DNA of 64,000 bases. It comes from Terriglobales bacterium. Its GTDB lineage: Bacteria > Acidobacteriota > Terriglobia > Bryobacterales > Bryobacteraceae. The translations under genes were made by a program, and so were the position numbers. Under the pieces are notes generated by a model. The model saw nothing but the letters and a program-made list of their open reading frames with translations, was not told where the DNA came from and ran no database searches. Positions 13,385-40,978 of this stretch are shown here, one piece after another. The DNA lies in assembly GCA_027485675.1 (NCBI GenBank), contig JAIXQP010000007.1, positions 310,001-374,000 on the forward strand, written 5' to 3'. The first letter of the stretch is position 1; every line of letters starts with the position of its first letter.

Positions 13385-13397
13385 GACTCCGATGCTA

Positions 13398-16883: not shown

Positions 16884-16891
16884 AGATCGTA

Positions 16892-16908: not shown

Positions 16909-16915
16909 CCAAATG

Positions 16916-24797: not shown

Positions 24798-24804
24798 GGG
24801 AGCT

Positions 24805-25950
24805 ATGAAAAAGACGGAATTGCTTTCGGTGACCGAACTGCTGGGCGTGCTGCGCCAGCGGTGGATGATGATTGCCGGCGGCGCACTGCTGGGCGCGCTG
24901 CTGGCGGCGGGTTACGCGCTCACCCGGAAGGACACTTTTACGGCCACGGCCGTCCTGATGGCGCCGCAACAGGCGCGTTCGTCGGCGCTGGCGGCGTTGG
25001 GGCAGGTAGGAGCCTCGACGGGCATCAGCATGCCGGAGTTGGGCCTGCGGAGTCCGGCGGATCTGTACCTGGGGATTCTCGGCAGCCGCACCATTGCGGA
25101 CGCGTTGATTGCCCGCTTCCACCTGATGGAACGCTACCAGGCAAAGACCATGACCGCCGCCCGGAAACGCCTGGCGGCCAAGGCCCGTTTCTCCGCCGGC
25201 AAGGATACGCTGATCCGGATTGCGGTGGAGGATTCGGAACCGCAGATGGCGGCCACGCTGGCCAACGCGTTCGTCGACGAACTGTACCGGCAGAACAGCC
25301 GTCTGGCCTTTACGGAGGCTTCGAGCCGGCGCCTCTTCTTTGAAAAGCAGTTGGAAACCGAGAAAGAGGCGCTGAACCAGGCCGAGAGCTCCCTGCGCCG
25401 GACGCAGGAGCGGACCGGCGTCGTGCAGATTTCGTCCCAGATGGACGCGAGCCTCCGCGCTATGGGACAAGTGCGGGCGGAGATTGCCGGGCGCGAAGTG
25501 GCGCTGCGGAGCATGGCCGAAAGTGTGACCGAGCAGAATCCGGACTACATCCGGGTATCAACCGAGCTGCAGGCGCTGCGCGGGCAACTGCGCCGCCTGG
25601 AACAGAACGACAGCGGACGCACGGCGGGAGATCCGTTGATCCCGGTGCGCTCGATGCCGGCCGCCGGCATCGACTACCTGCGGACGATGCGGGAGATGAA
25701 GTATCACGAGACGCTGCTGGACCTGTTGACCCGGCAGTACGAGGCCGCCAAGGTGGATGAGGCCAAGCAGGCGCCGGTGCTGCAAGTGGTGGACCTGGCG
25801 ACGCCGCCCGATCTCAAGTCGGGACCGCAGCGGACGATTATCACGCTGCTGGGCCTGGTGACGGGGGCCGTCTGCGGCGGCGCGCTGGGACTGCTCCGGC
25901 GGCGGCCTACGGTAGAGAGCAGACCGGCCGCGATGGCAGCGGCCGCTTAG
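24805..25950 (+). CDS. Wzz/GumC-type polysaccharide chain-length / co-polymerase protein
   Basis: A 381-residue inner-membrane protein read from the ATG at 24805 with a GGGGAG site just ahead. One membrane helix near residues 20-40 (MMIAGGALLGALLAAGYAL) and a second near 350-370 (TIITLLGLVTGAVCGGALGL) flank a large periplasmic coiled-coil region. This is the Wzz/PCP topology. There is no C-terminal tyrosine kinase domain, so any BY-kinase would be separate. It would control chain length and connect polymerisation to the SLBB export channel. The stop overlaps the convergent glycosyltransferase gene by 4 bases. Confidence 0.9.
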   Translation: MKKTELLSVTELLGVLRQRWMMIAGGALLGALLAAGYALTRKDTFTATAVLMAPQQARSSALAALGQVGASTGISMPELGLRSPADLYLGILGSRTIADALIARFHLMERYQAKTMTAARKRLAAKARFSAGKDTLIRIAVEDSEPQMAATLANAFVDELYRQNSRLAFTEASSRRLFFEKQLETEKEALNQAESSLRRTQERTGVVQISSQMDASLRAMGQVRAEIAGREVALRSMAESVTEQNPDYIRVSTELQALRGQLRRLEQNDSGRTAGDPLIPVRSMPAAGIDYLRTMREMKYHETLLDLLTRQYEAAKVDEAKQAPVLQVVDLATPPDLKSGPQRTIITLLGLVTGAVCGGALGLLRRRPTVESRPAAMAAAA

Positions 25951-27245
25951 GCCGCGCCAGCCACGGACCGCGGCCGTTCGATCTGTCGCCACACGGCGGC
26001 GGATCCCTGGCCGGGATTGGCGAGGTAGCGTTCCAGCCAGGGTTGCTGTTCGTGTAGGGCTTCCGCGGCGCTCAGGTTGTCCCACAACTCGGCCAACTGC
26101 GCGGCGTTCCGCGGCGTCCAGCGGGCGTAGAAGCCGCCGGGCGGGTCGATGCCGGCCGGGAGCAATTGCAGAACCGGCCGGTGGGCCAGCATCGCTTCGA
26201 GCATTGCCGTGGAGCCGAACGAGGCGACCAGCGTGGCGGAGGCGAGATCGTCGGCCAGCGAAACGCCACGCGGGGTGAAGGTAACAGCGGGGCCGAAGCC
26301 TTCGAAGTAAGACCGGTCTTCGAGCGGATGGAGCCGGATGCGGAGCGGGAGCCCGGTGGCCTCGGCCGCCTCGCGCAACTGGGCGATGACCATGCGGTGC
26401 TGGGCGGGGGAGAGGGAAGCGGCGTGGGTCTGCGAGAGAAAGAGCAGAGTGCGTCCGGGCGGCGGGGGCGGGGCGGGTACGGCGTAGCGGTCCAGGCGTG
26501 GCGCGCCGATGACATGCAGGGCGGAGGCCGCGGCGCCTTCCTCGAGATAGCGTTCCCGGAACGCCTCTCCCCACAGGAGATACTCGGTGGCGTTGGTTGG
26601 AAAGTACTCGAGGCTGGGCAGTCCATGCTGCAAGGTGATCCAGCGATCGGCGGCCTGCCCGAAGTTCAGGCAGAGGCCGGAGAAGTCATTGGGGGTAATC
26701 ACCGTGAGGGGGCCGGCGCACTGCTGGCGGATCGACTGCGCCAGGCGTTCGTAGGCGTAGGCGCGGCAGAGGAGCGCGCCGATGGCGGGTGAAAGCCGGG
26801 AGAGGCCGGGGCGCCAGGCATCCGGCGCGGCACGGCGCAGGCGCGCGTAGTCGGCGCGGGCCCGGGAGAAGTCGCGCGGAGACAGCAGGCGGAGCGCCAA
26901 CTGATCGACGTTGAGAAACGGCCCGGAGTGGAGGGCGCCGACGGCGGCCGGGCCGGCCAGGAGGGCCGGGCCTGGGCAGGTCTCGAGAAGAGGGCGGAGG
27001 GTGCCGTAGCCGCCTTCGGCGGCATAGTCGGTGACGAACAGATAGCGGAGGTTCCGGGGGACGTCCAGCATCCGAGACCAGGAGAGGCCGCGCCCGGCCA
27101 GGGCGAACGGATGCAGCGCCGCGCGCAAGGGCCGGGTCTCGACTTTGTTCCATAGATAGAACAGCGGCAGGCGAATGGAGTACAGCGCGCTGCCGCGGAA
27201 CGGGGCGAAGAGGGCGTTAGCTTGCTGCCATGGCAGCGGTGGCAT
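25947..27245 (-). CDS. GT-B-fold capsule/teichoic-type transferase
   Basis: A 432-residue cytoplasmic protein, last gene of the long minus-strand operon. The C-terminal half has the GT-B nucleotide-binding pattern seen in capsule and glycerophosphotransferase-like enzymes: ITLQHGLPSLEYFPTNATEY, LFLSQTHAASLSP, IRLHPLEDRSYFEGF, then SATLVASFGSTAMLEAMLA. The N-terminal half is poorly conserved. The ATG at 27245 (MPPLPWQQANALF) overlaps the end of the epimerase gene by 29 bases; a longer upstream frame would overlap more. Donor and acceptor are unknown, but the context indicates exopolysaccharide assembly. Confidence 0.7.
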   Translation of the reverse strand: MPPLPWQQANALFAPFRGSALYSIRLPLFYLWNKVETRPLRAALHPFALAGRGLSWSRMLDVPRNLRYLFVTDYAAEGGYGTLRPLLETCPGPALLAGPAAVGALHSGPFLNVDQLALRLLSPRDFSRARADYARLRRAAPDAWRPGLSRLSPAIGALLCRAYAYERLAQSIRQQCAGPLTVITPNDFSGLCLNFGQAADRWITLQHGLPSLEYFPTNATEYLLWGEAFRERYLEEGAAASALHVIGAPRLDRYAVPAPPPPPGRTLLFLSQTHAASLSPAQHRMVIAQLREAAEATGLPLRIRLHPLEDRSYFEGFGPAVTFTPRGVSLADDLASATLVASFGSTAMLEAMLAHRPVLQLLPAGIDPPGGFYARWTPRNAAQLAELWDNLSAAEALHEQQPWLERYLANPGQGSAAVWRQIERPRSVAGAA

Positions 27246-28152
27246 GGAATACCTCGGGAAGGGAGTTGACGGGTTCCGCGGCGAGGAGCCGGGCAAGACC
27301 TTCGTCCAGCGACACGGTGGGGCGCCAGCCGAGCAGGCGATGCGCGGCGGTGAGGTCGCCCCGCAGATGGGGACGGTCGGAGGCGCGGACGCGGGCGGGG
27401 TCCACCGTCACGGTAATGTCGCGGCCGGTGAGCCGCGCCAGGCTATGGACGATGTCGGCGGCGGTCCATTCGCCCGGGCCGGGCACATTGCAGACGCGGG
27501 CGGTAACCGGCGAGAGCGCCATGCGGGCGAGCGCCTCAGCGACATCGGTGACGTAGACGTAGCTGCGATAGGTGGAGGTATTGCCGAGCTGGATGCGGTT
27601 AGCGCCGGCGCGGAGTTGATCGCAGAGGACGGGGATGAGGTGGGGGTTCGTTTCGCCGGGGCCGTAGACGTTGAAGAGCCGGGCGATGGAGTAGCGCAGG
27701 CCGGAGGACTTCACCAGTTGCTCGCCGAAGTGCTTCGTGATGCCGTAGATCTCGCTGGGCGCCGGACGATCGTCTTCGTGGTGGTAGCGGTCCGTGGTGT
27801 CATAAACGGCGGCGGTGGAGGCAAAGACGAAGTTTGGCTTCGTTTCGCAAAATGACGCCGCGGCCAGGACGTTCTGGGTGCCTTCCACGTTGATGCGGAG
27901 GGTCCGGGAGGGCTCGCGTTCGCAGTCCGGTATGAAATGGAGGGCGGCCAGATGCACGACGGCATCCGGGCGGAACCCGCGCATGGCGGCCTTTAGCGCC
28001 GGGGCGTCAAGGATGTCTCCGACGTGGTCGTACGGGCCCGGGCGGCCCGTCGAGAGATTGTCATAGACCAGCACTTCGTGCCCGGCTGCGGCCAGACGAT
28101 TGGTCAGATGGGCGCCGACGAAGCCGGCCCCCCCGGTGATCATGATTCGCAT
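27217..28152 (-). CDS. NAD-dependent epimerase/dehydratase (UDP-sugar 4-epimerase-like)
   Basis: A 311-residue short-chain dehydrogenase-type sugar-nucleotide enzyme. The Rossmann motif ITGGAGFVGAHLTNRLAAAG lies at residues 5-24, and the catalytic Tyr-x-x-x-Lys is YGITK; a Ser/Thr-rich FASTAAVYDTTD segment precedes it. The length and motifs fit UDP-glucose/GlcNAc 4-epimerases, although dehydratases cannot be excluded. It supplies an activated sugar for the polysaccharide encoded around it. Its start lies inside the 3' end of the methyltransferase gene (92-base overlap), which is longer than usual for this operon. Confidence 0.9.
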   Translation of the reverse strand: MRIMITGGAGFVGAHLTNRLAAAGHEVLVYDNLSTGRPGPYDHVGDILDAPALKAAMRGFRPDAVVHLAALHFIPDCEREPSRTLRINVEGTQNVLAAASFCETKPNFVFASTAAVYDTTDRYHHEDDRPAPSEIYGITKHFGEQLVKSSGLRYSIARLFNVYGPGETNPHLIPVLCDQLRAGANRIQLGNTSTYRSYVYVTDVAEALARMALSPVTARVCNVPGPGEWTAADIVHSLARLTGRDITVTVDPARVRASDRPHLRGDLTAAHRLLGWRPTVSLDEGLARLLAAEPVNSLPEVFHATAAMAAS

Positions 28153-29053
28153 AATGCTCCTTCAGGGCGATGAACCAACCCTGCACCTGGTAGCGGCAGC
28201 GATCGAGCCGCCACCAGCGCAGACGCTGGCGGAAAAGGGATTCGAGACTGGCGAGATCCGGCGCGACGGGCGCGGCGGAGACGTTGGCCTGTTTGCGGGC
28301 CACGACGCGGAGGCTGCATTCGAGCAGCGGGGTTTCGAGCTCTTCGAGTTTTTCGACGGCGAAACCGGCGCGTTCGACCACATAGCGAAGGGAGTCCGGC
28401 AGGAACATCATGGGATGCGCCAGATGGATCATGCCGAGTCCGCGCCAGTGGCCACGGAGATTGGGGACCTCGACGAAGAGCGTGCCTCCTTCGGCGAGTT
28501 GGGCGCCGAGCGCCCGCAGGGTTTCGACGGGGTTGACGCAATGTTCGAGCACGTGAAACGCGGCGGCGTGCGTATAGGGGGCGGCGGGGCGGGGCAGATC
28601 CTCGAGGGAATTGGCGATGATACGGCCTCCGAGTTCGCGGCAGATGCGGTGGCAAAGCGTGGAGGGCTCCACTCCGGCGGCATCGACCTGAGGCAGCGTG
28701 GCGAGAGCGCGCAGGAAGGCTCCATCGCCGGCGCCGAGTTCGAGGACGCGCGAGCCCGGCGGGAGCAGTTCGCGATAGGCTTCGATGCGGCGCAGGGCCG
28801 TGTCGGCGGGGATGTTCTGGTGGGCGATGAGCCGGGCGCGGGAGGGGAAGTAGGTTTCGTAGGCGTGCTCGTAGAAGTCCGCGTAGGCGGCCGCGGTGGG
28901 GCGGGGATTGAGATAGAGCAGCCCGCAGCGCAGGCAGAGATCGGTGGCCAGGCCGAGGCCATGCCGGTCGTGGGCGAAGAGAGTACGGCCTTTGCGGGAC
29001 CCGCAGGCGTTGCAGCCAGTGGATTCGAGAGTCGGTTGCCAGCGGGAGGTCAT
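28061..29053 (-). CDS. class I SAM-dependent methyltransferase with N-terminal zinc-ribbon-like cysteines
   Basis: A 330-residue protein. The N-terminus has two CxxC pairs (CNACGS and CLRCGLLYLNPRP), a zinc-binding module common in sugar methyltransferases of polysaccharide loci. The SAM-binding motif I is VLELGAGDGAFLRALA, and AAFHVLEHCVNPVETL is the methyltransferase-type post-motif. It probably methylates a sugar or sugar nucleotide. The gene starts at an ATGA overlap with the asparagine synthetase stop. The C-terminal 30 residues (EHYANHDHRGGRLRRR onwards) are basic and lie over the epimerase start, so a frameshift or late stop there is possible. Confidence 0.85.
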   Translation of the reverse strand: MTSRWQPTLESTGCNACGSRKGRTLFAHDRHGLGLATDLCLRCGLLYLNPRPTAAAYADFYEHAYETYFPSRARLIAHQNIPADTALRRIEAYRELLPPGSRVLELGAGDGAFLRALATLPQVDAAGVEPSTLCHRICRELGGRIIANSLEDLPRPAAPYTHAAAFHVLEHCVNPVETLRALGAQLAEGGTLFVEVPNLRGHWRGLGMIHLAHPMMFLPDSLRYVVERAGFAVEKLEELETPLLECSLRVVARKQANVSAAPVAPDLASLESLFRQRLRWWRLDRCRYQVQGWFIALKEHYANHDHRGGRLRRRPSDQSSGRSRARSAGL

Positions 29054-30951
29054 GCGGCTTGTTCCTTGTAGCTTGTGAGTTGCTGCTGCCAGAGGGCCAG
29101 GGAGACGGGTAGCCAGTAGCTCTGTTCGGAGAAGGGCGCGGCCGTGGCGGCGCGCCAGGATTCGGGCTGGAGGTAGCGGGTGAGGAGGGGGTTCCCTTCC
29201 ACCTGATGGACGGCGGAGGAGAACCAGGTCTGTTCGGCCATGCCAAAGCCGAGCTTGGCGCGATTCCAGACGACCTGACCGGGCAGGCGGCTGGCCAAGG
29301 CGCTGCGGAGGGCGTACTTGCTGAAGCCGTCGCGGAAGCGGTCTTCGTCCGGCAGGTTCAGGGCGTACTCGACCAAGCGATGGTCGAGGAAGGGCACGCG
29401 GGCTTCCATCGAGACGCGCATGGAGTTGCGGTCGAGATGGCGGAGCAGCTGCGGCAGATTGAAGCGGGTGAGATCGGCTTCGAGACGATCGCGAAGGGAG
29501 CCTCCGGTCCACTGTTCGTGCCAATCGGCGGCGCGGCTGCGGTAGGCATGGAAGAAGTCCGGCCGGAGCAGGCCGGCGACCGGGCGGAGGCGGCGGAGCA
29601 GGCCGAAACGAAGCGGGGCGGGGAGCCAGGCGGCGGCGCCTTTGGCGAAATGGTGGGCGGTGGCGGAGAGGCCAATGGCCCGGGCGTTGTTCCAGAGGGC
29701 CGCGGGCGGGGCGTTGCGGAGAAGGACCGGCAGATGGACCCGGACGTATCCGCCGAGCAACTCGTCGCTGCCTTCGCCGGTCAGGATGACCTTGATGCCG
29801 TCGCGTTGCCGGATGTGGGCGAGAAGCGAGAAGGACGCAAAGATGGAGCTGTTATGAAACGGCTGCTCCTGGCAGCGGATGAGTTCCGCGAGGCCGGTCT
29901 CGAAGCTGGCGCGGTCGGCGGGGATGAGTTGCGCGTCGGTGTGGCGGAGAGTGGCGAGGGTCGCTTTGATGTTCGGCGACTCGTCGTAAGGATGGCCGGC
30001 GGGATAGACGCTCGAGTAGCTGCGCAGCCGCTGGCCCTGGGCGCCGAGCATTTCATCGGCGAAGGAGACGATGGCCGACGAATCGAGGCCACCGCTCAGG
30101 AAGCTGGCGACGGGAACATCACTCCGGAGCCGGAGGCGAACGGACTCGGCCAGATGGCGGCCGAGTTGGGTGCGATCGGCGGCGGGCAGACGGGGGATGC
30201 GGTACCAGCGGCGGGGCGATTGCGCTTGGCCGGCGTGAACGCGGACGGAATGCCCGGGCAGGAGTTGGCGAACGCCCGGATAGAAGGTCTGCTCGGTGTG
30301 GTCGGCGAGGCCGAACAGGAGAAAGTCCCAGGCGAGGGCGTCGGTGTCGCCATCGGGCAGCGGGCCCAGGGTGAGGAGCGGGCCAATCTCCGAGGCGGCC
30401 CAGAGCTGACCGTTGGGCAGGCTGCGCAGGTAGACCTGCTTTTCGCCGAACCGGTCGCGGGCGAGGAGCAGGGATTGCGAGGCGGGGTCCCAGAGGGCGA
30501 AGCCGAACATGCCATTGAGCCGGGGCAGAGCCTCCTCGCCCCAGATGGATCCGGCGCGGAGAAGGACTTCGGTGTCGGACCCCGAAAGAAAGGGGCCGGG
30601 CAGCGTTTCGCGGAGTTCCTGGTAGTTGTAGATTTCGCCGTTGAAGGCGAGGGCGTGGCCGGAGAGGGGATCGACCATGGGCTGATGGCCGGCGGCGGAG
30701 AGATCGAGAATGGAGAGCCGGCGGAAGCCCATCGCGGCGACGGCCGGTTGGACCGCGGTGCTGACGAACGGGAGATGGCTGAGGGCCGCGATGGTGTCGC
30801 GGCCCCGGAAGCGGGTGGAAGTGGCGGAGAGGGCCAGGTAGCCTTCGTCGTCCGGGCCGCGGTGGCGCAGGAGTTGCGTGGCCCTTTCAAGGCGGGCATA
30901 GTCGGCGCGGCCCAGCGGGCAGGCGCTGCTGACGGTAACGAATCCACACAT
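29050..30951 (-). CDS. asparagine synthetase B-type, glutamine-hydrolysing (class II amidotransferase)
   Basis: A 633-residue protein that begins Met-Cys2 (MCGFVTVSSACPLGR), so the glutaminase nucleophile is present, and has the conserved RHRGPDDEGY and GFRRLSILDLSAAGHQPM segments. The ATP-pyrophosphatase loop is SFLSGGLDSSAIVSFADEM. It is thus a canonical AsnB architecture, unlike the cysteine-less homologue at 38.4-40.2 kb. Within polysaccharide clusters such enzymes amidate uronic-acid carboxyls or other glycan acids; free asparagine synthesis is also possible. It lies 4 bases after the flippase gene and overlaps the methyltransferase start. Confidence 0.9.
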   Translation of the reverse strand: MCGFVTVSSACPLGRADYARLERATQLLRHRGPDDEGYLALSATSTRFRGRDTIAALSHLPFVSTAVQPAVAAMGFRRLSILDLSAAGHQPMVDPLSGHALAFNGEIYNYQELRETLPGPFLSGSDTEVLLRAGSIWGEEALPRLNGMFGFALWDPASQSLLLARDRFGEKQVYLRSLPNGQLWAASEIGPLLTLGPLPDGDTDALAWDFLLFGLADHTEQTFYPGVRQLLPGHSVRVHAGQAQSPRRWYRIPRLPAADRTQLGRHLAESVRLRLRSDVPVASFLSGGLDSSAIVSFADEMLGAQGQRLRSYSSVYPAGHPYDESPNIKATLATLRHTDAQLIPADRASFETGLAELIRCQEQPFHNSSIFASFSLLAHIRQRDGIKVILTGEGSDELLGGYVRVHLPVLLRNAPPAALWNNARAIGLSATAHHFAKGAAAWLPAPLRFGLLRRLRPVAGLLRPDFFHAYRSRAADWHEQWTGGSLRDRLEADLTRFNLPQLLRHLDRNSMRVSMEARVPFLDHRLVEYALNLPDEDRFRDGFSKYALRSALASRLPGQVVWNRAKLGFGMAEQTWFSSAVHQVEGNPLLTRYLQPESWRAATAAPFSEQSYWLPVSLALWQQQLTSYKEQAA

Positions 30952-30955
30952 AGAG

Positions 30956-34084: not shown

Positions 34085-35420
34085 GGGGCTCCTGAGAGGG
34101 AATCGAGATGGCGCGCATGGCGAGGCCGGCGAAGAGAAAGAGGGGAGCGGTGCCCGTGAAGCCGAAGATGCTCTCTGAGAAGAGCGCTCCGCAGGCACGG
34201 CCGAACAAGGCCGCCGCGAGAGCCGCGGCGAGAATGTTTTGCTGCGCAGTAGCGCCGCGGACGAGCGTGACCACCGTTGCGCCGAGAAAGCCCAGGAAGA
34301 GGAGCACGGAGAGGAGGCCCGCCTGCCCCATTAGGGCCATGTAACTGTTCTCGCCTACGCCCTCCGCGGAGACACCTTCGAGATGGGCGTAGCCGCCGGC
34401 TTGTCCGATGCCGCGGCCGAGTAAGTATTGGTCCAAGTTCTCGATAGCCTCCTGCATGAACTGTGTGCGCACGGAGGCGGAACTCTCCTGACCAGTTACA
34501 GTATTTGTCAAGAGTTCGGACCCAAGGGTACTTAGTACTAAGCCGCCGAAAATGGCCCAGAGCGCAAGGGAACCGATGCGGGCATGGTGCTCGCGGCGGA
34601 TCCATGCCAGCAGGCCGAGGGCGAGCAGCGTGGCAAAGATGGACTCGCGATGGACGGAGAGGGCAAGAGCGCCCATAAAGAGGGCAAGCAGCGGCAGCCA
34701 CCGGCGGCGCCCGGAGGCGACGAGGGCGGCGACATATACGACCGGGACGACGCTGGCTTGTCCGAGCGAGTGGGGGTCGCCGTAGAAAGAAACCATGCGG
34801 CGCATGCCGTGCATGATGTGGTTGGCCCAGAGGCCGAACTGGTTGCTGTTCTGGTCCGGTTGCAGACCTTTGACGTCAACGAGGAAGCCGCCGATCTGCA
34901 CGACCAGGCTCCAGAATTCGAGGGGGAGAAAGAAGAGTTCAAAGAAGCCGAAGGCGCAGACGACGCCATGGGTGATGAGGAGGACGCGGAGGAGGGAGGG
35001 CGCGGCGTCGACCTGAAGGAGACGGCCGGCGAAGTAGGCGAGCGGCGGCGTGATGAGATTGCGGAAGGCGCTGAACTGGGTTTCGGCGGAGATTTGCGTC
35101 TCGCCATCGCCGATGCCGAGGGCGAGATACAGCGTGAGCAGAACGGAGTAGGCGGCCAGGAGGAGGTCGGCCAGGTGCGACTCTCCGAGGCGGACGCGCT
35201 GGCGGAGGGCATTGCCGGCCAGGCTCATGCCGAGAAGGCCGTCCTTGATGGCGATGAGACCGCGGACCGTTTCCGCGCCCACGGCGAACTGGGCGTAGAG
35301 AAGGGGCGGGAAGAAGTTAGAAAAGGGCAGCCAGACGAGGAGAATGGCGGCTTGGCGGGCGGGATGGAAAAGCCCGCCGGCCGTGATGGCGGCAGCGAGG
35401 AGGGCGAAGAGGGGGCTCAT
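34059..35420 (-). CDS. O-antigen ligase / Wzy-like polymerase family membrane protein
   Basis: A 453-residue integral membrane protein with 10 or more hydrophobic helices and a large periplasmic loop (about residues 290-350, containing RTQFMQEAIENLDQYLLGRG and GENSYMALMGQAGLL), which is the arrangement of O-antigen ligase/Wzy polymerases (PF04932). It starts at the ATGA overlap with the sulfotransferase stop. A much longer frame upstream reads over the sulfotransferase and kinase genes and is spurious. It would polymerise or ligate the repeat units of the polysaccharide. Confidence 0.88.
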   Translation of the reverse strand: MSPLFALLAAAITAGGLFHPARQAAILLVWLPFSNFFPPLLYAQFAVGAETVRGLIAIKDGLLGMSLAGNALRQRVRLGESHLADLLLAAYSVLLTLYLALGIGDGETQISAETQFSAFRNLITPPLAYFAGRLLQVDAAPSLLRVLLITHGVVCAFGFFELFFLPLEFWSLVVQIGGFLVDVKGLQPDQNSNQFGLWANHIMHGMRRMVSFYGDPHSLGQASVVPVVYVAALVASGRRRWLPLLALFMGALALSVHRESIFATLLALGLLAWIRREHHARIGSLALWAIFGGLVLSTLGSELLTNTVTGQESSASVRTQFMQEAIENLDQYLLGRGIGQAGGYAHLEGVSAEGVGENSYMALMGQAGLLSVLLFLGFLGATVVTLVRGATAQQNILAAALAAALFGRACGALFSESIFGFTGTAPLFLFAGLAMRAISIPSQEPHADRPGHQ

Positions 35421-36241
35421 TGGGTATAGCCGAAGCGGGCGATGGTGGCAGCGTGACGGTGGGCGATCTGCGCGGATTGATCGGGGGTGAGGACGTCCCG
35501 CCAAGCGCCGGCGCGGCCTTGACGGAAGAACTTGGCGGCCTTTGCGGGTTTCTCGTCGAAGCCGCCAGCGTCCTCTTGCGCCCGCAGGCGCTGGAAGGAG
35601 CAGGCCTCGATGGCGGTGTGCAGCCGGGCTTCGTCGATGGAGTAGCCGCAGGCTTGAAGCAGGGCGGCGAAGGTGGGGCAGGGGCTGGCCAAAAGGTCTT
35701 CGTAGCGGGTGATGTGTACGGGGATGGCCGTCTGGTCGGCCCAGGAGGCGACATGGCCGGACCAGGAGCCGTAGAACTGCGGGAGTTGGGGCTTGCGTTC
35801 GGTGATGGTGCGGGAGGCGACATAGGTTTCGTCGGCGAGGATGGAGATGGTCTCGGCGACGGAGCGTCCACCATGGGCGGCGTACGAGACGGCGACATCC
35901 CACGGGTTGCGGATGATGTAGAGGACCAAGCTGGAATTGGCCGGGGTGAACAGTTGGGGATCGTATTGATCGTGAACCTTGAAGAAGTGGCCGGGCTGGC
36001 GATGGGCGACGCGGTCGTACCAAGCGTTGCGGAGCGCCGGGATTTCGTGGGGGAGGAGGAGGTCGCTTTCGCCGCCGAGGGCGTGGTCGAAGAGCGGGCG
36101 GGCCGCGGCGATGGGAATTGCTTTGAAGTCGTTCAGGGGGACCGTGGCTCCGGCGGGGGCGAGATAGTTGAGGAGCAACGCGCGGACCCAGGTATTGCCG
36201 GATTTGGGATAGGAGGCGATCCAAGTGAGGCGGCGTCTCAT
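35417..36241 (-). CDS. sulfotransferase domain protein (PAPS-dependent)
   Basis: A 274-residue cytoplasmic sulfotransferase. The 5'-phosphosulfate loop is WIASYPKSGNTWVRALLL at residues 7-24 and the 3'-phosphate site is LYIIRNPWDVAVSYAAHGGR. Such enzymes move sulfate from PAPS to hydroxyl or amino groups. The gene is coupled through 4-base overlaps to both neighbours: the lasso-type kinase upstream and the O-antigen ligase downstream. It therefore sits exactly at the junction between peptide and polysaccharide genes, and either the lasso peptide or the glycan could be its acceptor. Sulfotransferases have been found in lasso clusters, but the position does not decide between the two. Confidence 0.9.
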   Translation of the reverse strand: MRRRLTWIASYPKSGNTWVRALLLNYLAPAGATVPLNDFKAIPIAAARPLFDHALGGESDLLLPHEIPALRNAWYDRVAHRQPGHFFKVHDQYDPQLFTPANSSLVLYIIRNPWDVAVSYAAHGGRSVAETISILADETYVASRTITERKPQLPQFYGSWSGHVASWADQTAIPVHITRYEDLLASPCPTFAALLQACGYSIDEARLHTAIEACSFQRLRAQEDAGGFDEKPAKAAKFFRQGRAGAWRDVLTPDQSAQIAHRHAATIARFGYTQ

Positions 36242-37125
36242 GGCAGTTGAGCGATGACAGCGTCGGCGAGTTGGCCGACGGGGAAAGGACTTTGGGGACG
36301 GGAGATGCGGAGGACGCGTGCTTGCTGGGCCAGCGGAGCCAAATGGGGCGGGGAGGCGCCGGCGCCGCGGAAGGCGGGCACGAGGTTGGCGCGATAGACC
36401 TGATCGGCGAGAGCGCCGAGCTTGGCAAAGCCGGTGACCGGGGTGAGGGACAGTTGGCGGGGAGCGTTGGCGGTGAGGAGGAGGACGGCGCGGACAGGCA
36501 GCGGGGTGAGGTGCGCATCCCCCATGGGCACTTCGAACTTGGGGAGGTGCGGGCGTACGGCGAGAAGGCTGTCGGTGGCGATGGAGAGCTGGGAGGCGGC
36601 GTCGGCCCAGAGCTTGAGGCGGGGGTAGCCGGGATAGACCGTGATGGCGCCGGCCTCATCGGGGCCGAGGGCGCAGATATCGTCGGCGATGACGGGCATG
36701 CCGCGGCGGCGGAGTTCGGCGCAAAGGGTGGACTTGCCGGCGCCGGAGGGACCGGCCACGAGGATGGCGCCGGAGGGGGTAGCGACGGCGCTGGCATGGA
36801 GGACGAGCGCACCGCGCTGGTGCAACAGAGCACCAAACACGGAGCCGAACAGGAACAGGCGAATCGACTGCGGGTCCGCATTGGCAGCCGGTTCGATGAT
36901 GATTTGGCGGCCGCTACTGACGAAGTAGCGACCGACCGAGTCGAGGTGGAAGAGGTAGCCTTGCGGTCCAGCCTGGTAGCAGAGGCCGGACTGGCGGACA
37001 TCGTCGAGTTGGTTGGGGGTGGGCCCAACGAGGACCTGAACATCGCTGGGGCCGGCGGCCAAGGCAGGAAGAGAGCCGAGGTCGAGGGTGGAGCGGATTT
37101 GGAGTCCAAAGGCTTGGTAGCGCAT
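36238..37125 (-). CDS. HPr kinase-like protein, predicted lasso peptide C-terminal kinase
   Basis: A 295-residue protein homologous to the C-terminal half of HPr kinase/phosphorylase. The Walker A loop is LVAGPSGAGKSTLCAELRRR and HASAVATPSGAILVAG precedes it, as in other HprK-related proteins; PVIADDICALGPDEAG is the acidic Walker B-like segment. The N-terminal 110 residues are a separate small domain. In paeninodin-type lasso clusters such kinases (PadeK, ThcoK) phosphorylate the C-terminal serine of the precursor. Here the gene lies 7 bases downstream of precursor A1, and all five precursors end in serine, so that role is predicted. Translation is coupled to the sulfotransferase by an ATGA overlap. 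Confidence 0.87.
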   Translation of the reverse strand: MRYQAFGLQIRSTLDLGSLPALAAGPSDVQVLVGPTPNQLDDVRQSGLCYQAGPQGYLFHLDSVGRYFVSSGRQIIIEPAANADPQSIRLFLFGSVFGALLHQRGALVLHASAVATPSGAILVAGPSGAGKSTLCAELRRRGMPVIADDICALGPDEAGAITVYPGYPRLKLWADAASQLSIATDSLLAVRPHLPKFEVPMGDAHLTPLPVRAVLLLTANAPRQLSLTPVTGFAKLGALADQVYRANLVPAFRGAGASPPHLAPLAQQARVLRISRPQSPFPVGQLADAVIAQLP

Positions 37126-37146
37126 GAGAGGGTTACGAACTGAAGG
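37091..37146 (-). repeat. tandem duplication copy A (kinase 5' end plus end of precursor A1)
   Basis: This 56-base stretch covers the first 12 codons of the kinase gene, the 7-base gap and the last codons of precursor A1. By eye it matches copy B at 37364-37419 at 49 of 56 positions. The offset of 273 bases equals the distance between the stop codons of A1 and A2. Confidence 0.85.
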
Positions 37147-37294
37147 TGATGCCGTCCGGGATCGATCCAGTACCGGAAAAGGCTGTTTCGGTGATGGGCA
37201 GCTTTTCGAGTTGGGGCGGGGCCCACTCTGTTCGATTGACCTCTTCTTTGGCTGGGGTTTCCGGTGTGGGATGTTGTGCTTCGGGGCTAGTCAT
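37133..37294 (-). CDS. lasso peptide precursor A1 (predicted)
   Basis: A 53-residue peptide from the ATG at 37294; a GTG at 37321 would add nine residues that the other four precursors lack. The leader contains W-A-P-P-Q-L-E-K-L-P (residues 24-33), matching the YxxPxL-type B1-recognition motif with Trp in place of Tyr. The Thr at residue 37 fits the Thr(-2) rule. The predicted core from residue 39 is FSGTGSIPDGITFSS, with Asp at core position 9 and Ser at the C-terminus. Phe at position 1 is unusual; an 8-residue ring starting from the next Ser is the alternative. The kinase gene follows after 7 bases. The mature product is unproven. Confidence 0.78.
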   Translation of the reverse strand: MTSPEAQHPTPETPAKEEVNRTEWAPPQLEKLPITETAFSGTGSIPDGITFSS

Positions 37295-37363
37295 GGAATG
37301 CTCGTTGGGTTTGAGGGACACAGGGGCTCAGGAGGCAGCTGGGGCGAGGGCGCGCCGAACTGG

Positions 37364-37419
37364 GAGCGGATTTGGCGTCCACAGGCTTGGTGGCGCACGA
37401 GAAGGTTATGAACTGAAGT
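37364..37419 (-). repeat. tandem duplication copy B, fossil of kinase 5' end after precursor A2
   Basis: This copy follows the precursor A2 coding end. Read on the minus strand from the GTG at 37401 it gives VRHQACGRQIRS, against MRYQAFGLQIRS at the real kinase start, then diverges into an unrelated frame that stops inside the A1 start. It is a non-functional remnant of the kinase gene, left by a duplication of precursor plus kinase 5' end. Confidence 0.8.
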
Positions 37420-37567
37420 CGATACCGTCGGCGTCACTTCCCGTATTGGCAGCGGCTGTGCCGGCAACGGGAAGTTTGTCGAGTGCGGGCGGGGCCCAGT
37501 CTGGTTGAGCGAGGTCGTGGGCGACCGGCAGTTCTGGTGTTGGGCTCTGGGCTTTGGGATTGTTCAT
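37406..37567 (-). CDS. lasso peptide precursor A2 (predicted)
   Basis: A 53-residue peptide from ATG 37567, the same length as A1. Its leader starts MNNPKAQSPTPELP and contains W-A-P-P-A-L-D-K-L-P (residues 24-33). The Thr lies at residue 37, and the predicted core from 39 is AANTGSDADGIDFSS, with Asp9 (Asp7 is a further option for the ring) and a terminal Ser. Ala at position 1 is a known lasso first residue. The gene is followed by the remnant of the kinase start rather than by the kinase itself, showing that A1 and A2 arose by tandem duplication. Confidence 0.78.
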   Translation of the reverse strand: MNNPKAQSPTPELPVAHDLAQPDWAPPALDKLPVAGTAAANTGSDADGIDFSS

Positions 37568-37613
37568 TGGGTTCCGGTTGGGTTCTGGGGGCCCGCGGGT
37601 TGCGCCCGGTGGA

Positions 37614-37766
37614 TCAGGAGAAGAAGACGCCGTCGTCGCCGTTCTGGCTGCCCGTATTCGCGGTTTCGGTGACTGGTAGTTTCTGAAGTTCGGGCGGCGT
37701 CCAGGGTTCGGAAGCCGTCTCGGGCGGTGTCGTTGTTTCGGGGGATGAGTGGAGTGGATTGGTCAT
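37614..37766 (-). CDS. lasso peptide precursor A3 (predicted)
   Basis: A 50-residue peptide from the ATG at 37766. The leader has PWTPPELQKLPVTETA (residues 21-36), in which Thr35 occupies the -2 position. The predicted core from residue 37 is NTGSQNGDDGVFFS: Asp at positions 8 and 9, terminal Ser, 14 residues. Its ATG overlaps the stop codon of a 40-codon frame upstream as ATGA, so translation may be coupled to that frame. The start context CTCATGA is shared with A4 and A5. Confidence 0.77.
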   Translation of the reverse strand: MTNPLHSSPETTTPPETASEPWTPPELQKLPVTETANTGSQNGDDGVFFS

Positions 37767-37885
37767 GAGTTTTCGTGCCTCAGGAGAAAGATCGACCGGC
37801 TGCCCGCTTGCGACGCTTGGAGTCCTTCGTCTAGTGCGGATTCGGAGCCTGCTTCACCGGGTGGGTTGGGGGAGACGTTGTTCAC
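37763..37885 (-). CDS. small unknown peptide between precursors A4 and A3
   Basis: A 40-codon frame starting with GTG at 37885 and ending in a TGA that overlaps the A3 start (ATGA). It has the best ribosome-binding site in the array: AGGAG, 6 bases before the GTG, lying across the stop codon of A4. The peptide begins MNNVSPNPPGEAGSE, like the MNNP starts of A2 and A4, but then lacks the W-x-P-P leader motif and instead reads LDEGLQASQAGSRSIFLL. It may be a diverged precursor, a leader that couples A4 and A3 translation, or a relic. No family recognised. Confidence 0.45.
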   Translation of the reverse strand: MNNVSPNPPGEAGSESALDEGLQASQAGSRSIFLLRHENS

Positions 37886-37894
37886 GAGAAGCTC

Positions 37895-38053
37895 CTAGGA
37901 AAAAATGCCAGCGTCGTTGACGTTGGTCGGCGAGGCGGCGGCGGTGTCTTCGATCGGGAGTTTGTCGAGGTGGGGCGGCGCCCACTCTTCGGCAGCGACC
38001 TTAGTGGCGGGGAGGGCTTCGGGAGTTTGGTTCTGCTGGTTGGGATTGTTCAT
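37895..38053 (-). CDS. lasso peptide precursor A4 (predicted)
   Basis: A 52-residue peptide from ATG 38053. The leader has EWAPPHLDKLPIEDTA at residues 23-38, nearly identical to A5, so the two are recent duplicates. With Thr37 at -2, the predicted core from 39 is AASPTNVNDAGIFS: Ala1, Asp9, terminal Ser, 14 residues. This is the most canonical of the five by first residue and ring position. Its stop codon is embedded in the ribosome-binding site of the next small frame. Confidence 0.79.
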   Translation of the reverse strand: MNNPNQQNQTPEALPATKVAAEEWAPPHLDKLPIEDTAAASPTNVNDAGIFS

Positions 38054-38146
38054 GAGTTTGGGTAACGTCCTTGCTTCGTTCGATGAGTTGTTTGCGGAAT
38101 GGCGGGCGGCCCACTCAAGCTAGGCACGCCCGGCCGTGGTGGGCTC

Positions 38147-38305
38147 TCATGACAAGAACCCGGCGTCGGCGATGTCGTTCGGGGAAGCGACGGCGGTGTC
38201 TTCGATGGGAAGCTTGTCGAGATGGGGCGGCGCCCAGCCCACCGCGGGGACCTCGGTGGTGGGAAGGATCTCGGGTGCCTGGTTCTGTTCGTCGGGATTT
38301 GTCAT
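38147..38305 (-). CDS. lasso peptide precursor A5 (predicted)
   Basis: A 52-residue peptide from ATG 38305, the first precursor after the cyclase gene (105 bases between). Leader block GWAPPHLDKLPIEDTA at residues 23-38, Thr37 at -2, predicted core from 39 VASPNDIADAGFLS with Asp9, a further Asp6, and terminal Ser. Val at position 1 is unusual; an 8-residue ring from Ala2 is the alternative. No ribosome-binding site is evident, so expression probably relies on readthrough from the cyclase gene or on a leader within the 105-base gap. Confidence 0.78.
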   Translation of the reverse strand: MTNPDEQNQAPEILPTTEVPAVGWAPPHLDKLPIEDTAVASPNDIADAGFLS

Positions 38306-38410
38306 GAGTCTGTTTTGCGCGGGTCGGGTTGGTTGGGTATCTTGGGGCCGATTGTCTGGGGCCTTACTCCCTCATATGGTTCAGTGATGGGCTTCTCGTG
38401 AATTGTGGGA

Positions 38411-40198
38411 TCAGGCCGCCGATTTGCTCACGAGATTTTGCGGCGAGGTCGTGGCGTGTTCGAGGAAGAACCCGCCGGCGAGCCCGCAACAGATTTGAGT
38501 CGTGAGGTTCTGGCGGGTTTGCGGGTTGGTGGCCGAACAGGCGTCGAGGATCGCCCGGCGCAATCGCGGCACGTCGAGGGCCTGGGCGACGGCCGGTTGG
38601 CGGCCGAATCGTTCAAGGGCTTCCATGGCCGCCGGCTGGTTCGCCTGCAGCCGTTGGACGAAGTCGGCGCACTGGAGGCCGCGGCGGCGATTGAGTCGAA
38701 CGATATCCGGCAGCAGGCCCTCCATGGCGCGGCGGGCGGGCTCGCGGCCGGCAAAGAGGTTCGGGGGAATAGCCTGGCAAAGGCGGATGAAGCGGGGGTC
38801 GACGGTGGGGTCGAGGGCCTGGAGGCCATAGGCGCCGGCGAGAGATGTCCAGAGGTACCCGGAGTAGTTGAGGGTGGCCTGCAGCGAGAAGCGGCGGAAA
38901 TCGTGCGCCTGCCGGTATTGATCTTCCGCGTCGAACAGCAATGGCGCGAGGCCCTCGGCGGTGATGATGGAGGGTCGGAGCAAGCAGAACTGCTGCCAGG
39001 CACCGCGCCGGCGAAAGCTGCGGCCGGTCAGTTGCTGCAGCTTGGCTTTGAGGATGTTGCGCCAGGTGGGCGGGCCATGCCAGGACAGGGTGGCGTTGCC
39101 GCCTTGACCATTGAAAATGGCATGGTGGCCATAGGCCTGGGACTCTTCGAGGATGGCGAGGAGCCACACGGAGTTCGCGGTGGCGCGCGCGGCGCCCGTC
39201 AGCACAACGGTCCGCTGGATGGCGGCGACCGGGCAACGGTCTGCCGCGGAGACGAGGTGGTGATCGATGTTGGGGTGCCATTTCGCCACGGCGGTGGCGG
39301 CAGGGCCTTCATCAAGAAACCGGAAGGGATCGAACTTTCCGACGGGGCGGTGGGCCGGAACGGAGGTGAAGGCGCCGAGACGTTGGCCGGAACCGGCGAG
39401 GACGCGAGCGGCCGTCGCGGTGACGGCACCGGAATCGAGTCCGCCGCTTAAGGTGGAGGCGGGTTTCAGCACCGAGCGGACCCGGGTTTCGACGGCGCGC
39501 CGGAAGGTATCTTCAAACTGGAGCTGCAGGTCGTCGGCGGAGCCGCGCAGCGGTTCGACCGGTTCGTGGAGGTCCCAATACCGGATCTTGCGGCAGGAGG
39601 CGGCGGTCACTTCGAGGGCGTGGCCGGCGATGAGCCGATGGACGCCGCGAAAGCCGGTGTCGGCCGACTGATTGGCCAGGATGCTGAGCGAGAGGCCCAG
39701 ACTCTCCCAATTGACTTCGCGGGGCACGCCGGGAACGGCGAGGACGCCATTGAGGTTGCTCGAGCAGGCGAAGCGGCCGGGGACGTGATGGTAGAAAAGA
39801 CCGGCGCTGCCGAAGGGGTCGCGGGCGACGATCATGCGGCGGGTGCGATGGTTCCAGGCGGCGAACTGCCAATCGCCGTGGAGCCGGGTGAGGCAGCCGA
39901 GTTCGAGGCGGAGGAAGGCTTGGAAGGCGAGGGCAGCGTCGGAGATGGTGGCGGGGAGATGGAGCGCTAGGAGCAGTTCGTCGCGATAGTCGAGGCGGGC
40001 GTTGCCGACCCAGGTCCAGCCGCTGGCGGCATCGGTGAACAAACCGGAGTTGCGGCCGCCGGCGGGTTGGACGAAACCCAGCGAGATGCCGTCGGGGCTG
40101 ACGTGTTGGTCATTGGGCGTGCCGGGGGCGGCGACATTGGCCAGCATGGCGGCCAGAGGAGAAGGGCCTTCGAGAAGAGCGGCGCAGATGGAGTTCAT
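38411..40198 (-). CDS. asparagine synthetase homologue lacking glutaminase Cys, predicted lasso cyclase (C protein)
   Basis: A 595-residue AsnB-fold protein that begins MNSICAALLEGPSPLAA; there is no Cys2, so it cannot hydrolyse glutamine in the normal way. The rest of the N-terminal domain is degenerate but recognisable (RLHGDWQFAAWNHRTRRM and DPFGSAGLFYHHVPG). The ATP-pyrophosphatase loop STLSGGLDSGAVTATAARVL is intact. Lasso C proteins activate the side chain of Asp/Glu in the core as an acyl-adenylate and close the macrolactam, and they have this same loss. It lies directly upstream of the five precursors on one transcript, which supports the call. Confidence 0.85.
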   Translation of the reverse strand: MNSICAALLEGPSPLAAMLANVAAPGTPNDQHVSPDGISLGFVQPAGGRNSGLFTDAASGWTWVGNARLDYRDELLLALHLPATISDAALAFQAFLRLELGCLTRLHGDWQFAAWNHRTRRMIVARDPFGSAGLFYHHVPGRFACSSNLNGVLAVPGVPREVNWESLGLSLSILANQSADTGFRGVHRLIAGHALEVTAASCRKIRYWDLHEPVEPLRGSADDLQLQFEDTFRRAVETRVRSVLKPASTLSGGLDSGAVTATAARVLAGSGQRLGAFTSVPAHRPVGKFDPFRFLDEGPAATAVAKWHPNIDHHLVSAADRCPVAAIQRTVVLTGAARATANSVWLLAILEESQAYGHHAIFNGQGGNATLSWHGPPTWRNILKAKLQQLTGRSFRRRGAWQQFCLLRPSIITAEGLAPLLFDAEDQYRQAHDFRRFSLQATLNYSGYLWTSLAGAYGLQALDPTVDPRFIRLCQAIPPNLFAGREPARRAMEGLLPDIVRLNRRRGLQCADFVQRLQANQPAAMEALERFGRQPAVAQALDVPRLRRAILDACSATNPQTRQNLTTQICCGLAGGFFLEHATTSPQNLVSKSAA

Positions 40199-40204
40199 GG
40201 CGGG

Positions 40205-40978
40205 CTACCAGAGGTTGCGGTTGATGAGCAGCCCTTGACTGGGGAAGAGGGGGAGGAGGGTGAATTCGGGGTAGGTGGCGGTGAACTCGGCGAGGGCACG
40301 ATCAACGCCCCGGCAGCGGCGGTTGACATCGTCGATGACGATGGCGCTGCGCGGGGCGAGACGGGTGCGGAGCCAGGCGAGAGACTCGCACGTGGCGAGA
40401 TAGACATCGACATCGAGATGGCAGAGGGCAATGGGGCCAACGTCGACGCCTTCGGCGGCGGAGGGGAAAAAGCCGCGGTGGACCTGGGCGAAGGGAAAGG
40501 GGGAGAGAAGGTTGCGGACGCGATCGTAGGAGGTGTCGAGGAAGTCGTCCATGCGGAAGAGGTCGTCGTCGTCGGTAAGCGCGGAGAAGCCGCCGGTTTC
40601 AAAGGGATCGAAGCAGTGAAAGTTGCGAGGGGTGGAGCCGGAAGTGATGGCGTTGCAGAGATGGAGGGCGCTGCCGCCTCGCATGGAACCGACCTCGATG
40701 AAAGCGCCGGGGCCAACCTGGCGGGTGTAGTTCCAGAGGTTGGCGAGACGGGCGTGATCGAGGAGCGTGTGAAACTTGACCTGTGCGATGGAGGCCTGAT
40801 AAGCGGGATCGTGGAGCACCTCGACGTTGCCGGTGTCGATGGGCGGATGGAGCAGGCGCCGGCGCTCCGCGGCAAAGCGGTGGCGGCGGAGGGGGGTGCC
40901 GAGCAGATGGAGAACGTCCCATTTGCGCGAGTTGAGCTGCCAGCGCGTCAGATTGTCGGTGAACCAGTTGGCGACCAT
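40205..40978 (-). CDS. TylF/MycF-like class I methyltransferase
   Basis: A 257-residue SAM-dependent methyltransferase of the macrocin O-methyltransferase (TylF) type. The signature is GAFIEVGSMRGGSALHLCNA, with FHCFDPFETGG and the metal-ligand region LCHLDVDVYLATCESLAWLR followed by AIVIDDVNRRCRG. These enzymes methylate sugar or other hydroxyls with a divalent metal. It is the first gene of the long minus-strand operon, 6 bases upstream of the lasso cyclase. It could modify the peptide or a polysaccharide sugar; the position just ahead of the cyclase makes a peptide role attractive but unproven. Confidence 0.85.
   Translation of the reverse strand: MVANWFTDNLTRWQLNSRKWDVLHLLGTPLRRHRFAAERRRLLHPPIDTGNVEVLHDPAYQASIAQVKFHTLLDHARLANLWNYTRQVGPGAFIEVGSMRGGSALHLCNAITSGSTPRNFHCFDPFETGGFSALTDDDDLFRMDDFLDTSYDRVRNLLSPFPFAQVHRGFFPSAAEGVDVGPIALCHLDVDVYLATCESLAWLRTRLAPRSAIVIDDVNRRCRGVDRALAEFTATYPEFTLLPLFPSQGLLINRNLW

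Follow-up and report, generated by a model that had tools for sequence, protein, structure and literature searches.

The window, a stretch of 64,000 nucleotides from a Terriglobales bacterium (Acidobacteriota), carries lasso peptide genes interleaved with capsule genes. A minus-strand run from 40978 to 25947 joins a cyclase, an HprK-like kinase and a sulfotransferase to Wzx/Wzy-type polysaccharide genes (Table 1). The original prediction placed fourteen gene positions in this run; its coordinates and its single strand hold, but our count is 12 enzyme genes and five lasso-type precursor ORFs (17 in total). A further half of the locus lies outside the run. The Wzi-Wza-Wzz capsule export genes occupy 20950-25950 on the plus strand, and on their far side, divergent from Wzi, genes for the lasso RRE, the protease and NTP_transf_5 lie on the minus strand (20797-19069).

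Table 1. Features of the lasso and capsule locus in window coordinates. A slash in the precursor rows marks the presumed cut.
Feature	Position	Strand	Match or motif
TylF-like methyltransferase, first gene of run	40205..40978	-	PF05711, 4.1e-15
Lasso-cyclase-like asparagine-synthase homologue (C), without Cys2, SGGLDS	38411..40198	-	PF00733 above cut-off; NF033535 2.6e-51
Precursor A1: WAPPHLDKLPIEDT-A / VASPNDIADAGFLS	38147..38305	-	
Precursor A2: WAPPHLDKLPIEDT-A / AASPTNVNDAGIFS	37895..38053	-	
Precursor A3: WTPPELQKLPVTET-A / NTGSQNGDDGVFFS	37614..37766	-	
Precursor A4: WAPPALDKLPVAGT-A / AANTGSDADGIDFSS	37406..37567	-	
Precursor A5: WAPPQLEKLPITET-A / FSGTGSIPDGITFSS	37133..37321	-	
HprK-like lasso precursor kinase (K)	36238..37125	-	His, GxxGxGKS, DD motif present
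Sulfotransferase, 4-base overlap either side	35417..36241	-	PF00685, 9.7e-22
Polytopic membrane protein, candidate polymerase or ligase (Wzy/WaaL-like)	34059..35420	-	DUF2079 only, sub-threshold
GT4 glycosyltransferase	32984..34084	-	
WecG/TagA/CpsF glycosyltransferase	32257..32967	-	9.2e-59; TIGR00696 above cut-off
Wzx-type flippase	30956..32260	-	PF13440, 5.9e-21
Glutamine-dependent asparagine-synthase-like amidotransferase (AsnB), N-terminus MCG	29050..30951	-	TIGR01536 335.7 bits, cut-off 267.1
Class I methyltransferase	28061..29053	-	
NAD-dependent sugar epimerase/dehydratase	27217..28143	-	1.8e-50
Putative glycosyltransferase, last gene of run; stop overlaps Wzz stop	25947..27245	-	weak matches only
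Wzz-type co-polymerase	24805..25950	+	
Wza-type export protein	22560..24797	+	Poly_export, SLBB
Wzi-type capsule assembly protein	20950..22557	+	1.8e-82
Lasso B1 (PqqD-like RRE), divergent from Wzi	20501..20797	-	PF05402 above cut-off
Lasso B2 leader peptidase	20107..20514	-	PF13471, 7.9e-24
NTP_transf_5 nucleotidyltransferase	19069..20100	-	PF14907, 2.1e-45

The predicted lasso kit in the window is complete, comprising B1, B2, a cyclase-like C, five precursors, an HprK-like kinase, a sulfotransferase and NTP_transf_5. A W[AT]PPxL leader motif, Thr at position -2 and Asp as core residue 9 are common to all five precursors, each of which ends in Ser; the features by which lasso precursors are recognised (leader [Y/W]xxP motif, Thr(-2) and Asp/Glu at core 7-9) are likewise found in 5/5. 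A later in-frame ATG in A5 is a possible start. Provided the cut follows T-Ala, the cores of A1-A5 begin with V, A, N, A and F, respectively, an unusual set as this position is usually a small residue (Gly, Ala, Ser or Cys). Against the lasso models, C (NF033535, 175 bits, cut-off 525) and B1 (NF033536, 60.5 bits, cut-off 80) score below cut-off and B2 above it (NF033537, 85 bits, cut-off 33). The best relative of C outside the genus lies within a kin-B1-B2-C lasso cluster (genome G081, locus L030). AsnB was rejected as a lasso cyclase, being above the asparagine-synthase cut-off with an N-terminal MCG. NTP_transf_5 has a nucleotidyltransferase fold and a DxD motif (D102, D104) invariant in 26/26 sequences, and homologues of the sulfotransferase (40-45%) adjoin kinases in the lasso loci of G007 and G014. 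The motifs of the window kinase are those listed for lasso kinases in PMC10368454.

Among the parts of a Wzx/Wzy capsule locus, Wza, Wzz, Wzx and glycosyltransferases are all present. The gene first called a ligase encodes a polytopic protein matching only DUF2079, below cut-off, and may be either polymerase or ligase; its single-sequence structure model (pLDDT 43.8) was useless. We refer to it below as the polymerase. PGT and WecA HMMs found no initiating phosphoglycosyltransferase in the window, and we therefore call the locus Wzx/Wzy-type rather than complete; the enzyme may be encoded elsewhere in the genome. The window Wzz-type protein gave no match to a tyrosine kinase domain.

The run had been described as packed with 4-base overlaps or short gaps, and its junctions bear this out. 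The kinase and sulfotransferase genes overlap by 4 bases, as do the sulfotransferase and polymerase genes. Downstream, the distances (overlaps negative) are -26 bases from polymerase to GT4, +16 from GT4 to WecG, -4 from WecG to Wzx, +4 from Wzx to AsnB, -4 from AsnB to the methyltransferase, -83 from there to the epimerase (start uncertain) and -29 from the epimerase to the last gene. The widest gaps, about 46-130 bases, fall in the precursor region, so an internal transcription start is possible there. A consensus scan of 25900-41200 found no promoter-like site. Terminator-like sites in the scanned region numbered 11, against 8.0 +/- 3.4 in shuffles. The only one on the minus strand between kinase and polymerase, where a separate promoter and terminator would have spoken against a shared operon, is a weak site at 34806, within the polymerase coding sequence. 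These features support a single predicted transcription unit.

The block is found in 5/19 genomes of the genus, the window genome included. Gene order is the same in G084, G097 and G091 and also in G092, where the block is spread over two contigs; the core of precursor A3 is near-identical in G084 and G097. As predicted, peptide genes lead straight into polysaccharide genes: both 4-base overlaps of the sulfotransferase and the length of the polymerase-GT4 junction are identical in all five block genomes, in each of which the TylF-like methyltransferase lies 6 bases ahead of the cyclase. The three relatives whose copy is complete show 72-95% kinase identity, and the block genes give pairwise dN/dS values of 0.03-0.42. 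Junction lengths conserved at this divergence, together with these dN/dS values, indicate that the arrangement is beyond chance, and on sequence comparison the block genes are under purifying selection.

Kinase and Wzi genes are present in the same five and absent from the same 14 of the 19 genus genomes. G094 has lost the block, but a roughly 730-base spacer there still contains shreds of NTP_transf_5, B2/B1, Wzx/WecG, GT4 and kinase in collinear order, and its TylF gene is broken. Four genomes (G093, G094, G095 and G101) keep the cyclase without other lasso genes. The cyclase motif reads SGGLDS in 5/5 block genomes and SGGxNS in 4/4 of those keeping the cyclase alone. We considered a role for C outside the lasso pathway; the D-to-N change in exactly these four genomes and the G094 shreds argue for an orphan cyclase left by lasso gene loss rather than a non-lasso cyclase. 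The orphan reading frame nevertheless remains open. G097 also has a second Wzi locus, which lacks lasso genes. On sequence comparison, the lasso and polysaccharide sets of the block have been inherited and lost as one unit in the genus.

The linkage expected in relatives therefore stands within the genus, where the two sets were never found apart, but not in the wider family, where only 6/59 non-genus lasso loci are polysaccharide-linked. We accordingly rejected the idea that lasso loci are linked in general; with 53/59 unlinked, lasso peptides need no capsule operon in general. In G081, from another genus, the order PF00953-kin-B1-B2-C-3 precursors reaches a contig end whose last 54 bases match the start of a second contig (52/54), and that contig continues precursor-NTP-Wzi-Wza-Wzz-Wzy_C-Wzx, with a PF04932 Wzy_C protein after Wzz. 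We infer that the G081 lasso genes sit inside the export operon, across the contig join. Other linked loci are those of G025, G184, G186, G228 and G015; wider stretches, with unequal flanks, were examined for G025, G184, G015 and G228 because Wza was already known nearby. In other phyla a polysaccharide marker was found at 13/47 lasso loci, 3/33 non-lasso kinase loci and 2/20 control stretches, the latter hand-picked from long contigs and including one (L203) whose contig has a listed Wza (one-sided Fisher 0.036 against the 33, 0.017 against the 33+20). The HMMs for Wzx, Wza and glycosyltransferases were our own rather than from Pfam and miss distant members, so the linkage counts are lower bounds for loci and controls alike. 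All 80 loci were kept in the linkage and exporter comparison, and the family set comprises 66 groups.

On a kinase tree restricted to loci with at least two lasso genes and a kinase of at least 200 aa, polysaccharide linkage changes 15 times (gain or loss) and recurs in several clades. Such coming and going, and the minority state of linkage in the family, would suit lasso genes that merely settled in a capsule locus, as foreign genes readily do. However, this is improbable given 4-base overlaps conserved at 72-95% kinase identity, purifying selection, joint loss with collinear shreds and recurrence across clades.

The absence of a lasso ABC exporter was confirmed for the window with an MsbA-seeded HMM, and the two G081 contigs and the stretches from G025 and G228 showed none either. 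These absences would fit export of the peptide by Wzx and Wza instead of an ABC exporter, as the original prediction had suggested. That argument failed. An exporter is present at 2/12 sulfotransferase-positive and 26/51 negative loci (two-sided p 0.051) and, within the family, at 0/11 and 8/30 (two-sided p 0.083); exporter absence goes with the sulfotransferase, also at loci without polysaccharide genes. In other phyla most linked loci (11/13) have retained the exporter, and Wzx flippases move lipid-linked sugars. We consider Wzx/Wza export of the peptide quite unlikely.

The retained exporters also fit co-regulation without a chemical link. On this view the cell, growing on a surface or as a biofilm, would make the capsule and a phosphorylated lasso peptide (possibly with sugar and sulfate added) at the same time and release the latter as a signal or an antibacterial, the operon setting only its timing. 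Secretion is the usual fate of lasso peptides. In stationary phase, Paenibacillus alginolyticus shows a joint rise of a lasso cluster, a cluster for linear polyphosphorylated peptides (LPP) and an EPS gene (PMC13381572). By contrast, the window locus has no exporter, and co-regulation alone needs neither two-place interleaving of the pathways nor their joint loss. NTP_transf_5 also adjoins Wzi above chance, lying within 5 kb at 6/30 places listed against an expected 0.097 (five block copies excluded; distances read by eye among the matches listed; places not all independent). Co-regulation is possible, with clearly less than an even chance.

Kinase-NTP pairs adjoin Wzi at L276, L277, L278 and L268/L269, and no RRE, B2 or cyclase genes were detected beside them. 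Such pairs may thus serve the capsule and not a peptide, a point against our preferred explanation; the capsule or the proteins that assemble it would then be the targets of kinase and NTP_transf_5, with lasso genes using both enzymes secondarily. However, the kinases of these pairs are remote, scoring 68-82 bits with the lasso-kinase HMM. In the tree the window kinase falls among lasso kinases, and Ser is the last residue of all five precursors. We regard this explanation as very improbable.

Our preferred explanation, held tentatively and a little short of an even chance, is that one capsule locus also makes a family of lasso peptides tied to the capsule through a phosphoserine group, as a component of it or held in it rather than secreted alone. 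The shared operon, kept and lost as a unit in relatives, suggests that the peptides are made for the capsule; perhaps they are hung on it. The functional tie first proposed between peptide and polysaccharide genes is in this sense supported. By analogy with known lasso pathways, B1 and B2 would cleave after T(-2)-Ala, C would join residue 1 to Asp9 in a ring followed by a tail of 5-6 residues, and the kinase would phosphorylate the C-terminal Ser ending all five precursors. The phosphoserine may then receive a sugar or sugar-phosphate-type group from NTP_transf_5, in the manner of PsmN in pseudomycoidin, and this group is the putative link to the capsule of the same operon. A covalent link through the C-terminal phosphoserine is plausible. 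A stronger version, in which the lasso peptide is a capsule building block, seems unlikely: the kinase would make a phosphoserine and NTP_transf_5 extend it, joining the threaded peptide to the Wzi/Wza-exported polysaccharide and yielding a sulfated coat with a strain-variable peptide part. Counted against the preferred explanation were the unlinked family loci (53/59), the lasso-free Wzi locus of G097, the scores of C and B1 below NCBI lasso cut-offs, the unusual core residue 1 and the possible E. coli origin of the pseudomycoidin sugar (PMC9266682).

A covalent link would represent a new glycoconjugate class and would explain why lasso peptides are phosphoglycosylated. What kinase-type (paeninodin-like) lasso peptides do was unknown to the authors of PMC13381572; manufacture for the surface coat is a directly testable answer, and natural knock-outs exist.

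Like the Wzx/Wzy-dependent colanic acid locus of E. coli K-12, the window has Wza, Wzz/Wzc-type, Wzx, glycosyltransferase and candidate Wzy genes; it differs in its interleaved lasso genes and in that the window search revealed no initiating phosphoglycosyltransferase. In pseudomycoidin (psm) of Bacillus pseudomycoides the C-terminal Ser is phosphorylated and carries a hexose, PsmN acting on the phosphoserine (reviews PMC9266682, PMC8498205), although the sugar was possibly added by an E. coli enzyme, an alternative stated in PMC9266682. The psm cluster shares kinase and nucleotidyltransferase with the window, which adds a sulfotransferase and a TylF-like methyltransferase; capsule linkage is not described in the relevant excerpts of either review. 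BsfK-type clusters share lasso kinase, RRE, B2 and nucleotidyltransferase with the window, but have an ABC transporter, and BsfK phosphorylates Ser3 of BsfA, which ends in Asp, whereas the window precursors end in Ser (PMC10368454). Acidobacteriaceae precursors are mentioned in that paper, from whose main text the word polysaccharide is absent. RRE, HprK-like kinase and NTP transferase genes of LPP clusters likewise lie close to capsule loci, but these clusters lack a cyclase and use a signal-peptidase-like protease, where the window has C and B2 (PMC13381572). Closest are the paeninodin-like lasso clusters embedded in Bacilli capsular polysaccharide loci (PMC13381572, Nat Commun 2026), which share with the window precursor, cyclase, B2, RRE, HprK-like kinase and NTP transferase in a capsule locus and a Trp-type leader motif. 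Those loci belong to Bacillota, whose kinases form a separate group of the tree excluding the window kinase. As far as that paper describes them, the window differs in its Wzi/Wza, its sulfotransferase, its five precursors, its lack of an ABC exporter and in gene sets that overlap within one operon and are split either side of Wzi-Wza-Wzz. Lasso clusters in Bacilli capsule loci were thus already known; the present locus extends them to the capsule operons of a Gram-negative group, in which the two gene sets are inherited together and lost together.

The window (positions 310001-374000 of a 377-kb contig; genome 6.59 Mb) holds 12 enzyme genes and five precursor ORFs (A1-A5) in one minus-strand run. 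The original prediction of a single-strand run of lasso and polysaccharide genes was borne out, but it noticed only one side of the arrangement, missing the PqqD-like RRE (B1), leader peptidase (B2) and NTP_transf_5 genes. As these lie beyond Wzi-Wza-Wzz, divergent from Wzi with 152 bases between, and the other lasso genes lie at the opposite side, the capsule genes are bracketed by lasso genes. The AsnB of the polysaccharide part is glutaminase-type (N-terminus MCG), and its purpose is perhaps an amidated uronic acid. The PSCyt1 to SelA-like gene set (8817-18960) adjoining the lasso genes is also present in most genus relatives, beyond either the block or an orphan cyclase.

Features of the lasso-capsule block and of related loci
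Feature	Location	Coordinates	Strand
TylF-like methyltransferase, lasso-cyclase-like C, A1-A5, HprK-like kinase, sulfotransferase, polytopic candidate polymerase, GT4, WecG/TagA, Wzx, AsnB-type amidotransferase, methyltransferase, epimerase, putative glycosyltransferase	Window	40978-25947	-
AsnB	Window	29050-30951	-
Sixth ORF, decayed-looking precursor	Window	37763-37885	
Wzi, Wza/SLBB, Wzz (directly beyond the minus-strand run)	Window	20950-25950	+
B1, B2, NTP_transf_5	Window	20797-19069	-
PSCyt1/PSCyt2/PSD1 + DUF1501 pair, hybrid two-component kinase (13398-16814), DUF4432, SelA-like genes	Window	8817-18960	
NTP_transf_5 match	G097, C24	84017-84745	
Orphan cyclase, SGGxNS for SGGxDS, no lasso genes nearby	L025	8578-10365	
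Same	L027	2547-4229	
Same	L028	9805-10896	
Same	L029	3243-4358	
Wzi capsule locus with an adjacent pair of HprK-like kinase and NTP_transf_5 genes, no RRE, B2 or cyclase detected	L276	2793-7374	
Same	L277	10303-14591	
Same	L278	1438-4579	
Same	L268 + L269	15608-17875 + 242-1996	

A kinase (E <= 1e-8) was found in five of the 19 genus genomes examined, counting that of the window, and Wzi (E <= 1e-20) in the same five; the other 14 had neither. Further kinases, only distantly related, occur in two of the five (G084 and G097), and G097 also has another Wzi. An NTP_transf_5 match in G097 contains one in-frame TGA. The full gene order was kept in G084, G097 and G091, and is spread over two contigs in G092. 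In all five block genomes the kinase-sulfotransferase and sulfotransferase-polymerase junctions are 4-base overlaps and the polymerase-GT4 overlap is 26 bases, whilst the cyclase-kinase distance (213-1285 bases) tracks the number of precursors. In the pairs compared, dN/dS was 0.03-0.42 for lasso and capsule genes alike.

Four further genomes (G094, G093, G095 and G101) kept the cyclase without the block. The G094 cyclase-SelA spacer matches, one after another, NTP_transf_5, the B2/B1 junction, Wzx/WecG, GT4 and the kinase (blastn 66-89%; kinase remnant by tblastn, 3e-8). TylF is broken in this genome, and the cyclase motif, SGGLDS in all five block genomes, is SGGLNS. Taken together, these traces indicate that the ancestor of G094 carried the block, which then decayed as a whole. 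Similar remnants were not found by DNA comparison in G093, which has SGGFNS, as do G095 and G101. The orphan cyclases keep an open reading frame across the matched stretch and may be repurposed or slowly decaying.

Outside the genus, G081 provides the top matches to B1, B2 and C, as well as the kinase that lies closest on the tree. Its contig C469 carries a PF00953 glycosyltransferase, kinase, B1, B2, C and three precursors; the terminal 54 bases match the start of C410 (52/54), from which we infer that the contigs join. On C410 these are followed by a fourth precursor, closely resembling the others, and then by NTP_transf_5, Wzi, Wza, Wzz, a PF04932 protein and Wzx, with every gene on one strand. 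In G184, G186 and G228, B1-B2-C-kinase-NTP lie downstream of genes for WecG, an epimerase and GTs and share their strand; G015 has a similar order, and in G025 the kinase and B2 are divergent from Wzi-Wza-Wzz. Such linked loci, with polysaccharide genes near the lasso genes, are a minority in the family (6/59 non-genus loci, G081 included).

A genome collection was scanned with the kinase alignment. Among the best 80 of 137 relatives, 47 loci had at least two of B1, B2 and C, and a polysaccharide marker lay within ~10 kb at 13 of these, compared with 3/33 other loci and 2/20 control stretches. One-sided Fisher p values were modest, and ignore relatedness (0.036 against the 33; 0.017 against both sets). 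In the kinase tree, where 22 of the 85 rows are linked, the distribution of linkage requires 15 changes, of which starred branches force at least 10, against a shuffled mean of 19.6. Linkage turns up in separate groups of Acidobacteriota, cyanobacteria, Mesorhizobium/Desulfocapsa and Bacillota. Polysaccharide genes adjoin lasso kinase loci L109, L119, L130, L131, L135, L137, L139 and L145 (Bacillota, Desulfocapsa, cyanobacteria, Mesorhizobium).

The window indeed lacks an ABC exporter, but this is no sign of export by the capsule machinery. Lasso loci of other phyla mostly have an exporter when linked to polysaccharide genes (11/13, vs 14/34 unlinked). Exporter absence instead goes with sulfotransferase presence: exporters occurred in 2/12 sulfotransferase loci vs 26/51 without (two-sided p = 0.051) and, within the family, in 0/11 vs 8/30 (two-sided p = 0.083).

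In model searches B2 exceeded the NCBI lasso cut-off, and B1 and C matched NCBI lasso models with scores short of their cut-offs. The window kinase retains the His, P-loop and Asp-Asp residues listed for lasso kinases in the available text of PMC10368454. The NTP_transf_5 DxD is invariant in 26/26 aligned sequences. A structure search with its predicted model (pLDDT 85.2) ranked nucleotidyltransferases first (fungal nucleotidyltransferase-like protein, 8.9e-5; lincosamide and aminoglycoside enzymes, ~8e-4). FKRP, which transfers ribitol phosphate from CDP-ribitol, matched more weakly (E 0.018; CDP-ribitol complex among the matches listed).

All five window precursors end in Ser and share both the leader end W-[AT]-P-P-x-L-x-K-L-P-x-x-x-T-Ala and Asp at core position 9 (numbered from T(-2)). 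Genus relatives carry other precursor sets in the same frame, some cores in G084 and G097 having Glu at position 9; the core in G016, which belongs to a different genus, is textbook-like (T-R followed by GGVGSALE...). A small residue is usual at core position 1 of lasso peptides, and the occurrence of other residues after the cleavage site predicted here is odd. Near the place of the sixth ORF, G084 has a precursor with the W-P-L motif and Glu9.

Across 237 family genomes, with the five block copies left out and distances taken from listings, NTP_transf_5 lay within 5 kb of Wzi at at least 6 of the 30 Wzi places above cut-off (G081, G028, G159, G034, G058, G025), against 0.097 expected. At G028, G159, G034 and G025-C124 a distant HprK-like kinase adjoins this NTP_transf_5, and no RRE, B2 or cyclase was detected there. 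The kinase-NTP pair thus accompanies capsule genes more widely than lasso genes do. This may speak for attachment chemistry, or for the pair having its own role in the capsule.

For paeninodin and pseudomycoidin it is established, in the available text of PMC9266682 and PMC8498205, that a kinase acts on the C-terminal Ser and a nucleotidyltransferase adds hexose. By analogy, this chemistry within a capsule operon would supply a handle that could join peptide to polysaccharide through the modified Ser. In Bacilli, lasso clusters lying within capsule loci have already been described, their role being stated as unknown (PMC13381572, May 2026). Among the matches listed from the open-access literature, no report from Acidobacteriota was found that pairs a lasso peptide with a capsular polysaccharide, Wzx/Wzy, an exopolysaccharide or a sulfotransferase.
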